Made by a program: the position numbers and the translations under genes
The notes under the pieces: generated by a model
Seen by the model: the letters and a program-made list of their open reading frames with translations, nothing else
The model's database searches: none
What the model was told of the DNA's origin: nothing
Shown here: one piece after another, positions 3,082 through 7,276 of the stretch
Layout: every line of letters starts with the position of its first letter
Position numbering within the stretch: the first letter of the stretch is position 1
Assembly (NCBI GenBank): GCA_938091995.1
Contig: CALKNZ010000069.1
Span: 1 to 36,881, forward strand
Origin: an uncultured Luminiphilus sp.
GTDB taxonomy: Bacteria > Pseudomonadota > Gammaproteobacteria > Pseudomonadales > Halieaceae
Length of the DNA: 36,881 nt
Reading direction: 5' to 3'

Positions 3082-3849
3082 ATGCGCTATCTATCCACTC
3101 TACTCGCTGCACTTTTCACCAGCACTTTAGCCTTCGCACAAGAAGCTGAAATGCGTTCAGAATTTGTTTACTGCTCGCTCAACCCTGAAAAAACCATGGC
3201 CGACGTGATCGCGCAAAGTCAACGTTACGGCGAATTCTCTAAAGCCAAAGGCACTAAATACGCACAGGCCGTTATGACCCCCATGCACAGTGGCGATACC
3301 AACGGCTACGATTACATTCTTTGGGGCACCTGGCCCGATGGCGAAGCCATGTACAACGAGTGGGGTTCTTATGCCAATGAGTATGCCGATTGGCTAGCAG
3401 AAAGCTCAGATGAAGCTCCAGCTGGGCCGGCATCTAAGTGCACACGATCTGTCGCTACAATTGATAGCCTCGTCAGCCGAGTGTCGATTCCAGCTGAAGA
3501 GCGTGATGACAAGCGCCCCGTACAGTTCACGCGCTGCTCCCTCAAAGACGGCGTGTCGATTGATCAGGTCTATGCGCAAGCATCCGCGAATAAAGAGATC
3601 ATGGAAGAAGGCGGTTTTAAGGGCTGGGCCATTAGCTATCTTTTCCCCTACATGGGCTTTGATGGTAAGCAAGACTTCGACTTCATGCAGGTCAACTATT
3701 GGTACTCCTTCGATTCAAGAGCTCATATGGCCGTCAACTGGCTCGACTTTGCTGAGAAAAACCCTTCAATTGAGGGTGATATGAGTCTTTTAGTGAGTTG
3801 TGAAGGTTCGAACTCTTTTGTTTATGAGTCGACGTTTAACAACCTTTAA
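3082..3849 (+). CDS. Secreted protein of unknown function with two tandem related halves
   Basis: I do not recognise a named family. The 255-residue product starts with a clear signal peptide ending in AFAQ at about residue 20, so the mature protein is exported. The ATG is preceded by AGAGG. After cleavage there are two similar segments, one starting EFVYCSLNPEK (about residues 27-130) and one starting QFTRCSLKDGV (about 148-250). Each begins with a CSL motif, continues with an amphipathic helix and a tryptophan- or tyrosine-rich strand region, and ends near another cysteine (SKC and VSC). This suggests an internal duplication with one possible disulfide per half. A dimeric alpha/beta-barrel-like fold is only a guess. 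The gene stands alone and ends at a strong terminator. Confidence 0.8.
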   Translation: MRYLSTLLAALFTSTLAFAQEAEMRSEFVYCSLNPEKTMADVIAQSQRYGEFSKAKGTKYAQAVMTPMHSGDTNGYDYILWGTWPDGEAMYNEWGSYANEYADWLAESSDEAPAGPASKCTRSVATIDSLVSRVSIPAEERDDKRPVQFTRCSLKDGVSIDQVYAQASANKEIMEEGGFKGWAISYLFPYMGFDGKQDFDFMQVNYWYSFDSRAHMAVNWLDFAEKNPSIEGDMSLLVSCEGSNSFVYESTFNNL

Positions 3850-3909: not shown

Positions 3910-4833
3910 CTAGCCTAGGGGTATCACGGTGTCGCTGAGATCCCGCGTAATGACCTCTCGAATCTGAGACTGCAGCTCCTGATAAAAATGGCGCGAAGGA
4001 GCATGGCGTCGATAGAGAAAAGCATGCTCACGAAATAACTTTCCACCCTGCAATGGCTGCACGCGTAATTCCTCCGGTCGGTGAATTTCACTGCGCACAT
4101 ACAGCGCGGGCAAGAAGGCAAGGCCCATGCCCATCACCACCATTTGTCTCAGGGTGTCGAGGCTAGTGCCTTCGTAATCACTGTTTAAACGGGCACCGGT
4201 TCGCTCACAGATTCGCTCGACTTCGCGCCGGAGTGTATGACGCTCATCGACCGCAAGAATTTCCAGGCCACTGAGGTCACTCTCTGCCACGTTAGTATGG
4301 GGGGCCACCTCCATATCAACGGGGCTCGCCAAGAAAAGCGGCTCGCGAAATAGTGGTTCGCGAACGATGGAATCGGGAACCGAAGCGATGGGGCCGATGA
4401 CAATATCAAACTGGCCTTCCTCTAAGCCCTTGAGCAACATATCCGGAACTTCTTCGCGAACGTGAAGACGAAGCCGTTGAAATCGCTGATGCAATGTCGG
4501 TAATAAGCTCGGCAACAGGTAAGGCCCCAATGTTTGCGGCACCCCAAGACGATAGGTGGAGTGACTGTGGCTACTGATGAGGTGCGCGCTTTCAACAATA
4601 TTGCGCCACTGCGATAACAGTGCGAGTGCCTCCGGCAATAGCTCCCGACCCGCAGGCGTGAGTAATGTCGCATTGCGGGTGCGCTCAAAAAGGACTACGC
4701 CCAAGATTTCTTCGAGTGCGCGAAGCTGCACTGTTAGCGTGGGCTGAGTGACTCCTAGTCGCTGTGCGGCTTTACGCAATGAGCCGGCATCGGCCACTGC
4801 GGAAAAGTATTCCAACTGCCTCAAAGATGCCAT
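3910..4833 (-). CDS. LysR-family transcriptional regulator, OxyR-like but lacking the peroxidatic cysteine
   Basis: The 307-residue protein has a winged helix-turn-helix at residues 1-60 (RQLEYFSAVADAGSLRKAAQ, then VTQPTLTVQLRALEE) and a C-terminal effector domain. The effector domain resembles OxyR: the stretch DERHTLRREVERICERTGA aligns with the OxyR redox loop, and EGTSLDTLRQMVVMGMGLAFLPAL matches its distal part. The residue at the position of OxyR Cys199 is Thr200, while the Cys208 equivalent is present (Cys209), so the peroxide-sensing disulfide cannot form in the usual way. The gene diverges from the SulP gene at 5117, and an OxyR-type half-site lies between them. That context suggests it controls SulP and perhaps itself. 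The inducer is unknown. Confidence 0.9.
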   Translation of the reverse strand: MASLRQLEYFSAVADAGSLRKAAQRLGVTQPTLTVQLRALEEILGVVLFERTRNATLLTPAGRELLPEALALLSQWRNIVESAHLISSHSHSTYRLGVPQTLGPYLLPSLLPTLHQRFQRLRLHVREEVPDMLLKGLEEGQFDIVIGPIASVPDSIVREPLFREPLFLASPVDMEVAPHTNVAESDLSGLEILAVDERHTLRREVERICERTGARLNSDYEGTSLDTLRQMVVMGMGLAFLPALYVRSEIHRPEELRVQPLQGGKLFREHAFLYRRHAPSRHFYQELQSQIREVITRDLSDTVIPLG

Positions 4834-5028
4834 TTATTCGTTACTCCGTTCTCTCCGATAAGAGGCACTGACCATACAGCCGGGTCTAACACCCAGCTCT
4901 TACACACCCACTACCATTGGAACAAAACCACACTGGCCGCCAGAGAACAGGTTTTACAGAAAACTGATTGCAGGGGCACTTTGGCTCAAGCACCTGTATC
5001 TCACTGGCACCCAGCATAAAACAAACAT

Positions 5029-5043
5029 ATAGAAAAAAACTAT
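5029..5043. promoter_or_regulatory. Candidate LysR/OxyR-type operator half-site
   Basis: ATAGAAAAAAACTAT fits the OxyR half-site form ATAG-N7-CTAT and the general LysR T-N11-A rule. It lies 73 bases upstream of the SulP start and about 195 bases upstream of the divergent regulator. A second half-site at the correct spacing is not convincing. Confidence 0.4.
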
Positions 5044-5116
5044 CGCTAAATACTAAAACCTTTGATATACCATTGCACGTACATTACCCGCCTTTACTCA
5101 AACATGGAACTCATAC

Positions 5117-6745
5117 ATGCGCGCTGCGTACACTTTTGACCTCAAGCATCTCCGTGGAGATATTTACGGTGGCCTCACTGCAGGTGTCGTCGCCATCCCA
5201 CTAGCCCTAGCCTTTGGTGTGGCATCAGGGCTTGGCCCCATGGCAGGTATGTATGGGGCCATTATTGTCGGATTCTTTGCAGCTTGGCTGGGCGGCACCC
5301 CCACTAACGTATCAGGCCCAACGGGTCCTATGGTCGTGGTGCTCGCGGGCTTATTTGCCAGCCTTTCAGGAGACGTTGGACTCATTCTAACCGCAGTGGT
5401 CCTGGCGGGGGTTTTTCAGATCATCTTTGGCTTCATCAAACTGGGCGATTTTATTGCGCTCGTACCCTACCCCGTAGTGTCTGGTTTTATGAGCGGTATC
5501 GGTGTCATCATTATCATTTTGCAGCTGGACGCCACCGTCGGTCACATGGCGCCCGCGGGCACTATATCTGCGCTGAAATACCTCCCCACAGCGCTGAACG
5601 ATATCAATATGACAGCTTTGATCGTAGCCGCCATAACACTCGTTGTCGTCTATGCTTGGCCTACTGCCTGGGGTAAATACTTACCCTCCGCTCTGGCCGC
5701 TCTTTCGGCTGGCACCCTGGCCTCCCTATTTTTAGGTGAGCTACCCGTGCTGGGCGAGATTCCCAGTGGACTGCCCAGTTTCCATATGCCTATTTTTGAT
5801 CAAGATGCCATGATGCTGGTCATTGAAGCCGCCTTCATTCTCGCCGTTTTAGGTGCCATTGACAGCCTGCTGACCTCCTTGGTTGCTGACAACATGACAA
5901 GAACCCGCCATGACTCTAATCAAGAGCTGATCGGCCAAGGCATTGGCAACACTATCGCCGGCTTGTTTGGTGGCATCGCAGGTGCTGGTGCGACAATGCG
6001 AACGGTGGTGAACATCCGCTCCGGCGGTCACACCAAGATATCCGGCATGATCCACTCCGTGGTGCTCGCCGCGGTGGTCTTGGGCTTAGGACCTATTGCA
6101 GCCTATATTCCCCACGCCGCACTCGCAGGCGTGCTCATTAAAGTAGGGCTCGACATCATAGATTTCAGCTACTTGCGCAATGCCCATCGGGGTCCGCGTT
6201 GGGACTTAGCCCTCATGGCTCTAGTGCTGGGCTTAACTGTACTGGTCGATCTAATTACTGCCGTAGGAGCAGGGGTTGTATTGGCAGCACTGGCATACGT
6301 TAGACAGGTAGCTAAATCGCAACTTGAGGACCTAATGTCTCGACCCCTGACGCCGACTAGCCAAGAGGAAAAAGACTTAATCGAAGCGCTAATCGATAGG
6401 GTGACTGTTTTTGAATTTAGCGGCCCACTCAGTTTCGGAGCGGCTGCTGATGTTGGACATCATGTGCGAGAGCGGTACCGTGACGGTATGCACGCTATCG
6501 TTCTAGATTTTGGCAGAGTGCCATTTATTGATGTGTCTGCGATACGTGCGGTTGAGACCATTGCCTGTGACGCCGAGCGTGCGGGGAAGAAAGTCTATAT
6601 CACGGGAATGAGTGACGAGATCGCAGCGACTATGGCTGGACTCGGTGCAGACTGCTGTCTCGATCTTAATTCGGCACGTTACACCGATCGGTTGGAATTA
6701 CTGCGCACCTTACGAGACGAATATGCTGGCAAGCTCAACAGCTAG
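5117..6745 (+). CDS. SulP (SLC26) family anion transporter with STAS domain, probable bicarbonate or sulfate uptake
   Basis: The 542-residue inner-membrane protein has the SulP layout. An N-terminal segment (DIYGGLTAGVVAIPLALAFG) opens a chain of about 12 to 14 hydrophobic helices up to about residue 400. A cytoplasmic STAS domain follows at about 430-542, with FSGPLSFGAA and VPFIDVSAIRAVE. The core motif SGPTGPMVVV is present near residue 67. Substrates in this family include sulfate, bicarbonate and dicarboxylates, and sequence alone does not settle which. The next gene, 103 bases downstream on the same strand, is an iota-carbonic-anhydrase-like protein, so bicarbonate is the favoured substrate (inference). 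The start is supported by GGA eight bases before the ATG. An OxyR/LysR-like regulator is divergent upstream. Confidence 0.92.
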   Translation: MRAAYTFDLKHLRGDIYGGLTAGVVAIPLALAFGVASGLGPMAGMYGAIIVGFFAAWLGGTPTNVSGPTGPMVVVLAGLFASLSGDVGLILTAVVLAGVFQIIFGFIKLGDFIALVPYPVVSGFMSGIGVIIIILQLDATVGHMAPAGTISALKYLPTALNDINMTALIVAAITLVVVYAWPTAWGKYLPSALAALSAGTLASLFLGELPVLGEIPSGLPSFHMPIFDQDAMMLVIEAAFILAVLGAIDSLLTSLVADNMTRTRHDSNQELIGQGIGNTIAGLFGGIAGAGATMRTVVNIRSGGHTKISGMIHSVVLAAVVLGLGPIAAYIPHAALAGVLIKVGLDIIDFSYLRNAHRGPRWDLALMALVLGLTVLVDLITAVGAGVVLAALAYVRQVAKSQLEDLMSRPLTPTSQEEKDLIEALIDRVTVFEFSGPLSFGAAADVGHHVRERYRDGMHAIVLDFGRVPFIDVSAIRAVETIACDAERAGKKVYITGMSDEIAATMAGLGADCCLDLNSARYTDRLELLRTLRDEYAGKLNS

Positions 6746-6803
6746 TAGTGCAAGAAAAAAGCCATCACAACCGAAATAGACGTATCGTCGAAATAACCAC
6801 AGA

Positions 6804-6822
6804 GGGGTTGCAACACAACCCC
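6804..6822 (+). other. Intercistronic hairpin between SulP and the iota-CA-like gene
   Basis: Perfect 7-bp arms GGGGTTG and CAACCCC flank a CAACA loop, 26 bases before the next start codon. There is no T-run after it, so it is not a classical terminator. It may stabilise or process the mRNA between the two cistrons. Confidence 0.4.
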
Positions 6823-6848
6823 AAAACCGAAACCAGGAGAGTAAAGAA

Positions 6849-7220
6849 ATGACCAAGGAAGACATCGTGCAGCTATTTGCCAATTGGAACGCGGCGCTTC
6901 AAACCGGCGATCCGGATCAAGTGACGGCACTGTACGCAAAAGATGCCATTCTGCTACCTACTGTTTCCAATCAGGTACGGCATAACCACCCTGAAATCAG
7001 AGATTACTTTGTCAATTTTTTAAGCAAGCAACCCCAAGGCGTCATAGACGAAGCCAACACACGACACTTGGCATCGGATCTGGTGAGTAATGCCGGGGTC
7101 TATACTTTTACCTTTGGTGATGGCAACACCGTCACGGCGAGGTTTAGTTATCTTTATCAGCTAATCGAAGGTGACTGGAAAATACTGGAGCACCATAGTT
7201 CAGCTATGCCCGAGGGCTGA
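6849..7220 (+). CDS. Iota-class carbonic anhydrase-like protein (SgcJ/EcaC, CaMKII-association-domain fold)
   Basis: This 123-residue protein is a single NTF2/SnoaL-like domain. The features are an N-terminal helix (FANWNAALQTGDPDQVTALY), the strand DAILLPTVSNQVR, a middle helix with IRDYFVNFL, GVYTFTFGDG, and the C-terminal motif EHHSSAMPEG with His115-His116-Ser117-Ser118. Bacterial iota-carbonic anhydrases are commonly annotated as SgcJ/EcaC family proteins and carry the same fold and an HHSS-type tail, so I assign CO2/bicarbonate interconversion. No signal peptide is visible, so it should be cytoplasmic. AGGAG lies upstream of the ATG. It follows the SulP gene on the same strand, which fits conversion of imported bicarbonate. 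A different small-molecule role for this fold is possible but less likely. Confidence 0.8.
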   Translation: MTKEDIVQLFANWNAALQTGDPDQVTALYAKDAILLPTVSNQVRHNHPEIRDYFVNFLSKQPQGVIDEANTRHLASDLVSNAGVYTFTFGDGNTVTARFSYLYQLIEGDWKILEHHSSAMPEG

Positions 7221-7245: not shown

Positions 7246-7276
7246 AAAAAAACCCCGCGCTAACGCGGGGTTTTTT
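7246..7276. terminator. Bidirectional rho-independent terminator
   Basis: A 7-bp GC stem (CCCCGCG and CGCGGGG) encloses the loop CTAA. It is flanked by seven A on the left and six T on the right, so it can terminate both the iota-CA-like gene from the left and purK from the right. Confidence 0.92.

Follow-up and report, generated by a model that had tools for sequence, protein, structure and literature searches.

An iota-class carbonic anhydrase gene beside a BicA-like SulP transporter gene in Luminiphilus: a proposed LysR-controlled module for inorganic-carbon supply

Introduction

The locus studied here raises the question of what a SulP transporter gene and a small gene of the SgcJ/EcaC type do side by side in the genome of an uncultured Luminiphilus sp. 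Both lie on a contig of 36,881 nucleotides (CALKNZ010000069.1, assembly GCA_938091995.1; contig C69 in our numbering and referred to below as the window), which belongs to a 2.88-Mb genome that is 80.75% complete. We propose, with a probability of about 0.8, that the two genes and a divergent LysR-family regulator gene form a LysR-controlled module for the supply of inorganic carbon, in which SulP would import bicarbonate and a cytosolic iota-class carbonic anhydrase (CA) would stand in for a beta-CA.

Felce and Saier reportedly described pairs and fusions of SulP proteins with beta-CAs in 2004. A CA3-SulP operon is reported for M. capsulatus (PMC11423575), and PMC6776030 and PMC10880623 served as further background. 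The combination of SulP with a beta-CA is already known, and that of SulP with an iota-CA, with exchange of the two CA classes in place, appears to be new. No SulP-iota pair was found among the literature matches listed, which were judged by titles and abstract openings in a search that left subscription journals mostly uncovered.

The small protein is a predicted leaderless iota-class carbonic anhydrase

The two open reading frames (ORFs) noted in the preliminary description of the window were confirmed: a 542-residue SulP protein with a STAS domain (positions 5117-6745, + strand) and, 103 nucleotides further on the same strand, a 123-residue protein of the SgcJ/EcaC fold that ends in HHSSAMPEG (6849-7220). 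In Pfam the 123-residue protein matched CaMKII_AD best, at 74.7 bits (cut-off 22.1), and this outscored SnoaL_3 (42.4) and DUF4440 (36.6). The NCBIfam SgcJ/EcaC model TIGR02246 was matched at 58.3 bits (cut-off 33.95). The best solved chain was 3h51 (E 1.7e-33, 47-49% identity), followed by chains of ketosteroid isomerase (KSI) at E 1.8e-5. An AlphaFold model was built from a 45-row alignment, with a mean predicted local distance difference test (pLDDT) score of 94.2. Among its best 50 structural matches 3h51 came first, with template modelling (TM) scores of 0.96 (3h51_B) and 0.93. KSI and other NTF2-like folds ranked after them at 0.65-0.82, characterised KSIs reaching 0.65-0.70 and the putative KSI 3hx8 0.80-0.82.

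A Thr, a Tyr, a His and a Ser together with two Phe are described as the active-site residues of COG4337 enzymes (PMC8132391) and have been mapped onto the diatom COG4875 domains (PMC8395977). T38, Y53, F54, F57, H116 and S118 of the 123-residue protein occupy these positions and are invariant in the 45 aligned rows, and apart from one residue their spacing is the same as in the T. pseudonana domains. The HHSS motif, at residues 115-118, is invariant in both the 20-row and the 45-row alignment; the optional extra His of the (H)HHSS form is absent. An N-terminal leader is usual, although not defining, in bacterial iota-CAs (PMC8132391, PMC8425729, PMC7191908). No leader was found in the window protein: the first helix of the model starts at residue 3, and the 23 in-frame codons between the start and the nearest upstream stop include no ATG. 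Sequence, fold and active-site residues all bear out the earlier suggestion of an iota-CA, and the prediction of a leaderless iota-class CA of the CaMKII_AD/COG4875 type is well supported.

The transporter resembles the bicarbonate importer BicA

The SulP protein scored above the Pfam cut-offs for both Sulfate_transp (286 bits) and STAS (52.9 bits). Its best solved match was BicA (6ki1, E 1.8e-109), and in NCBIfam the BicA model gave 491.2 bits versus 321 for DauA and 277 for the general sulP model. BicA is a Na+/HCO3- importer for which T69, D258, T262, G300, A301 and T302 are listed as Na+/HCO3- residues (PMC13249358). All six are kept in the window SulP by alignment, and they are identical in 42/42 Luminiphilus-type SulPs and in 3/3 close SulPs that come from two further families. 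The full set was absent from each of 26 SulPs that are more distant, drawn from this genus and from two other genomes of the order (two from the window's own genome, the rest from relatives). The preliminary description held that the substrate is bicarbonate and not sulfate. Bicarbonate is indeed the likeliest substrate to judge from the sequence, given that no solved structure matches better than BicA and that the window SulP retains the site residues listed for it. Membership of the SulP family does not by itself prove a substrate: a SulP encoded at the carboxysome locus of T. pelophila raised intracellular dissolved inorganic carbon (DIC) in E. coli and could rescue a CA-less E. coli, which a second SulP could not (PMC12628692).

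Conservation of the pair in either gene order, with a LysR gene alongside

We searched 36 other genomes of the genus together with the window's own genome for the iota-CA. A strong match was present in 22 of the 36, and at all 23 loci with such a match, the window included, a SulP gene adjoins the iota-CA gene on the same strand. The order is SulP-iota at seven loci and iota-SulP at 16. Such regularity goes beyond coincidence. Another genome (G010), with a weak iota-CA match (E 2.6e-4) and no adjoining SulP, was left out of this count. Twelve of the 36 genomes are at least 90% complete; ten of these carry the iota-CA with SulP and two a beta-CA with SulP.

A scan of named genomes, limited to the best 80 of 131 loci and overlapping the 23 loci above so that the counts cannot be added, found the pair at 35 loci (12 with SulP first, 23 with iota-CA first) and no SulP at 45. 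The paired loci, mostly from records titled Luminiphilus or Halieaceae, include Luminiphilus syltensis NOR5-1B and HTCC2080, the closest at 93%. In a tree of 82 selected iota-CA rows, which has few alignment columns and a bootstrap that had not settled, the SulP-linked proteins are monophyletic (100/100) and the iota-first proteins make up a clade nested among them (96/97). No SulP match was seen near the other iota-CAs, either at the 45 loci (3.8-16.4 kb of sequence) or at 29 further loci with 1.5-kb flanks (L112-L140). SulP pairing as a general trait of iota-CAs was rejected for this sample.

The preliminary description called the two genes a compact module. The functional pair stood up, supported by the two gene orders and by the exchange with a beta-CA described below; the two-gene extent did not, since it leaves out a LysR-family regulator gene that goes with the unit. 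This third member (3910-4833, - strand; LysR_substrate 134.7 bits, HTH_1 76.8 bits) is divergent from the SulP-CA genes. It is OxyR-like by NCBIfam, at a score under that model's cut-off. Among the 35 paired loci of named genomes, 32 have a divergent LysR homologue (47-92% identity) 121-529 bp from the unit, and two others have too little upstream sequence. A LysR homologue (46-51% identity) also adjoins the beta-CA versions of the unit. The intergenic region between LysR and SulP (4834-5116) is presumed from the sequence to hold the regulated promoter; a scan for sigma-70-type promoters gave no match in it. The gap between SulP and the iota-CA (6746-6848) contains the ribosome-binding site AGGAGAG at 6835-6841. 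Co-transcription of the two genes is plausible because a promoter and terminator scan gave no match within this gap.

A beta-CA occupies the place of the iota-CA in related genomes

In three of the genomes searched for both classes (G006, G018 and G035) a beta-CA gene sits in the iota-CA slot. Across the genus, 9 of 57 genomes gave a beta-CA match, and six of the 57 (these three together with G426, G430 and G431) have the layout LysR | beta-CA - SulP, with only the first 50 matching SulP residues present before the contig end in G426. Twenty of the 57 genomes, including G426, G430 and G431, were searched for the beta-CA alone, so that the iota-CA counts do not extend to them.

One comparison sets G035 (beta) beside G016 (iota). 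Their DNA is 93.0% identical from the SulP start onward. On the upstream side it is 89.4% identical as far as a point roughly 100 bp beyond the LysR start. The matching flanks enclose approximately 690 bp with the beta-CA gene or 568 bp with the iota-CA gene, the CA gene being the sole difference. A SulP tree, built by a quick method and with support values from the Shimodaira-Hasegawa-like approximate likelihood-ratio test (SH-aLRT) alone, places the beta rows of the genus at three separate positions among the iota rows.

A beta-CA match was found in 5 of the 36 same-genus genomes versus 20 of 21 genomes of other genera in the order, so the iota-CA mostly seems to substitute for a beta-CA within this genus. 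Outside the genus, 29 SulP loci with flanks of up to 1.5 kb were compared. The layout LysR | beta-CA - SulP occurred at two of them (L191 and L193), LysR-SulP without a CA at one (L192), and an iota-CA beside SulP at none; the beta-CA may be the older partner of SulP because of this distribution. In the window's own genome, 80.75% complete as stated, searches for a beta-CA and for RuBisCO gave no match, and a profile search gave two Photo_RC matches (pufL/M-type). An alpha-CA search was also without a match there, although only 1 of 14 control genomes gave a signal in the same search.

Discussion

We propose that SulP, probably working as a secondary transporter in the manner of BicA, would bring bicarbonate into the cell and that the leaderless iota-CA, predicted to be cytosolic, would equilibrate CO2 and bicarbonate behind it. 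Respired CO2 could be trapped in this way and HCO3--dependent carboxylases fed, while LysR may sense a metabolite that reflects the carbon state. The iota-CA would do the same job as the beta-CA whose place it takes in relatives, in a host with photosynthetic reaction-centre genes and no RuBisCO match.

The module shares with the known pairs of SulP and beta-CA a CA gene adjoining a SulP gene and a proposed role in bicarbonate transport. It differs from them in its iota-class CA, its divergent LysR gene and a genome without a RuBisCO match, and beta versions occupy the same place in sister genomes. The SulP-STAS layout and the six listed Na+/HCO3- residues are those of BicA 6ki1; unlike BicA, the window SulP is paired with a CA gene. 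With the COG4875 iota-CAs (T. pseudonana LCIP63, B. territorii BteCA and X. campestris 3h51) the small protein shares the CaMKII_AD/NTF2 fold, the HHSS motif and the catalytic Thr, Tyr, His and Ser. It departs from them in lacking an N-terminal leader and in the SulP gene next door.

Several observations weigh against the proposed module. The CA activity of 3h51, the closest structure, is itself unconfirmed according to PMC8132391. The SulP score of 491.2 bits misses the BicA equivalog cut-off of 880 bits, which is why we call the protein BicA-like and not BicA. The six BicA residues are also kept in 25 of 26 SulPs at 44-53% identity whose genes have no adjoining CA, so they mark the BicA-like group and not the pairing. 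At the position of BicA Gly304 an Arg is found in 42/42 Luminiphilus-type SulPs and in 25 of these 26 (the surrounding sequence in the window SulP is IAGAGATMRTVVNIRS), and this Arg might change the sodium dependence relative to BicA. The pair was found solely in the Luminiphilus-type genus-level group, and within it one of the 35 paired loci (L062) has no LysR gene in 3 kb. Nine of the 36 same-genus genomes, all less than 90% complete, gave no close SulP, strong iota-CA or beta-CA match. In G005 a LysR-SulP unit has no visible adjoining CA (the contig ends about 340 nucleotides past SulP), no iota-CA was matched and a beta-CA lies elsewhere; G009 has an unlinked beta-CA in addition to its iota-CA. 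Five more genomes at least 90% complete, searched for the beta-CA alone, include one with two unlinked beta-CAs (G444) and one with a SulP-linked beta-CA (G430). Finally, the window's own genome encodes a gamma-CA-like hexapeptide protein (37% identity).

The same genes might instead work outwards, the CA hydrating respired CO2 and SulP exporting or exchanging bicarbonate for pH control. SLC26 proteins, the family to which SulP belongs, can be exchangers, which lends this idea some weight. It also draws on the report that COG4337 iota-CAs hydrated CO2 with no obvious dehydration (PMC8132391). Set against it are the inward transport of Na+ and HCO3- by BicA (PMC13249358), the raised DIC in E. 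coli with the T. pelophila SulP (PMC12628692) and the listed BicA sodium-site residues, which the window SulP keeps. On this evidence we regard outward operation as unlikely. Another possibility is that SulP carries a different anion, such as sulfate, a dicarboxylate or chloride, and that the CA does no more than adjust the pH or the balance of anions locally. SulP proteins differ in substrate, and the missed BicA cut-off and the Arg in place of BicA Gly304 in all paired SulPs fit such a role. This too is improbable, given that all six BicA ligand residues are kept here versus none of the 26 more distant SulPs with the full set, and that this SulP is usually partnered by a CA, be it iota or beta.

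Doubts about the small protein carry less weight. An NTF2-fold enzyme other than a CA (a KSI, SnoaL or oxidoreductase) is conceivable in that the SnoaL and DUF4440 profiles match and that KSIs come next by sequence, as KSI/NTF2-like folds do by structure. Tyr14 and Asp38, which we take to be the catalytic residues of KSI in the numbering assumed here, align with Trp13 and Pro37 of the 123-residue protein. A KSI or SnoaL function was rejected because the KSI residues are absent and because 3h51 leads the rankings by far (E 1.7e-33 versus 1.8e-5; TM 0.96/0.93 versus at most 0.82 among the best 50 matches). HHSS, T38 and Y53 are moreover invariant among the 45 aligned relatives and a beta-CA replaces the gene in place, which together make another enzyme of this fold very unlikely. 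The adjacency could also be neutral inheritance within one genus and say nothing about function, as the restriction of the paired loci to one genus-level group and the single clade of SulP-linked iota-CAs would allow. We find this hardly credible: adjacency survived a change of gene order, and within the genus a non-homologous CA fills the exact slot of the iota-CA at three points in the SulP tree.

The proposed supply module would give the genus a concrete system for inorganic carbon, in at least one genome (that of the window) with reaction-centre genes and no RuBisCO match. The swap of iota-CA and beta-CA in one slot is natural evidence for the role of both genes. Beta-CAs as a class are zinc enzymes, and the difference beside one transporter, between near-identical flanks, offers a natural matched pair of a zinc beta-CA and an iota-CA that presumably do the same job.

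Zinc-sparing neighbourhoods of other iota-CAs

The metal need of COG4875 iota-CAs is disputed (PMC7191908, PMC8132391, PMC8395977). B. territorii BteCA is reported to be sensitive to ethylenediaminetetraacetic acid (EDTA) and to be restored by Zn or Ca (PMC7191908), which counts against zinc independence. A diatom COG4875 enzyme is reported to be reactivated by Mn (PMC8132391) and has also been reported to be active without metal (PMC8395977), and the COG4337 relatives are described as metal-free (PMC8132391).

The neighbourhoods of other iota-CAs predict an answer. Of the 45 leaderless iota-CA loci without SulP (L067-L111), 20 have in their flanks at least one of ten zinc-sparing marker genes, as compared with 0/35 SulP-linked loci and 1/29 of the short-flank loci L112-L140. 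The ten markers were chosen from the neighbours of the same loci, so the count is descriptive only, and the SulP loci are the only length-matched control. Nine marker representatives were identified by Pfam and/or NCBIfam as CobW/ZigA (COG0523), QueD-type PTPS, DUF3299, FolE2, a Fur-family protein (best NCBIfam model Zur, under its cut-off), ThrRS, HisI, a dihydroorotase fragment (PyrC-like) and a MacB-like permease; the tenth is presumably DUF2796. Some of the marker matches are weak (ZigA 26-30%, ThrRS 33-39%), and most of the 20 marker-bearing loci are gammaproteobacterial, several of them closely related. The sole marker match in L112-L140 is a QueD-like gene (43%) at L121, 340 bp from an iota-CA that bears a leader.

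Paralogues or isozymes of zinc enzymes that are linked to Zur have been described, among them HisI, PyrC, gamma-Cam, ThrRS, QueD and FolE2, and some of these keep the zinc ligands (Haas et al. 2009, PMC2770081). Leaderless iota-CAs at other loci share this setting, with ZigA/COG0523, FolE2, QueD, HisI, PyrC, ThrRS and Zur-like genes nearby. On the other hand, the CA named among those paralogues is a gamma-CA and not an iota-CA, and the 35 SulP-linked loci have no such neighbours. A Zur-box scan with a consensus motif gave a weak signal, with 10 listed matches (two overlapping) at 16/22 or better in 8 of 25 loci, where 0-0.8 per locus were expected; all but two were over 1.6 kb away on the upstream side of the iota-CA. 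In the window the same consensus had no match at 16/22 or better. No paper with an iota-CA was found among the full-text matches listed for zinc, Zur and COG0523.

The zinc-sparing context suggests that the leaderless iota-CA is zinc-independent. We offer a wider scenario tentatively, at somewhat less than even odds. The leaderless enzyme would be zinc-independent, perhaps metal-free, and biased towards hydration, and would have originated in the Zur-type gene clusters of marine bacteria, where it would have served as a reserve that spares zinc. Later it may have entered the LysR-SulP module of Luminiphilus and displaced the zinc beta-CA. Inorganic-carbon supply would then no longer depend on zinc, a metal scarce in the surface ocean, and poor dehydration would avoid leaking imported bicarbonate as CO2.

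Limits of the module and neighbouring genes

The preliminary description also had the pair feeding carboxylases that included PurK, encoded next door, and a special link to PurK was not borne out. The purK gene is convergent and lies behind a bidirectional intrinsic terminator (7246-7276; CCCCGCG-CTAA-CGCGGGG with A and T runs), which was read by eye from the sequence and is absent from the terminator/promoter scan listing. Nor is purK a constant neighbour: L182, L184 and L189, all with the gene order of the window, have purK and purE close to the module, and the seven stretches examined from the other sub-clade (L177, L178, L179, L183, L185, L186 and L187) have neither gene there. Membership of purK in the module was rejected on these three grounds.

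In six stretches of that other sub-clade (L177, L179, L183, L185, L186 and L187) a gamma-CA-like hexapeptide gene lies just beyond SulP, so that two CA-type genes flank one transporter; the best NCBIfam model for it is gamma carbonic anhydrase, under the cut-off. Two of them also have a 139-residue ORF (L179:9530-9949 and L185:8929-9348) that has the same orientation as SulP and either overlaps its end or comes after it. In G023 the SulP gene is interrupted by the contig end. On the far side of LysR the window encodes a Metallo-beta-lactamase-fold protein (1693-2820; Lactamase_B 50 bits) and a 255-residue protein (3082-3849) without a Pfam match, which is probably secreted and is kept beside LysR in G015 at 87% identity.

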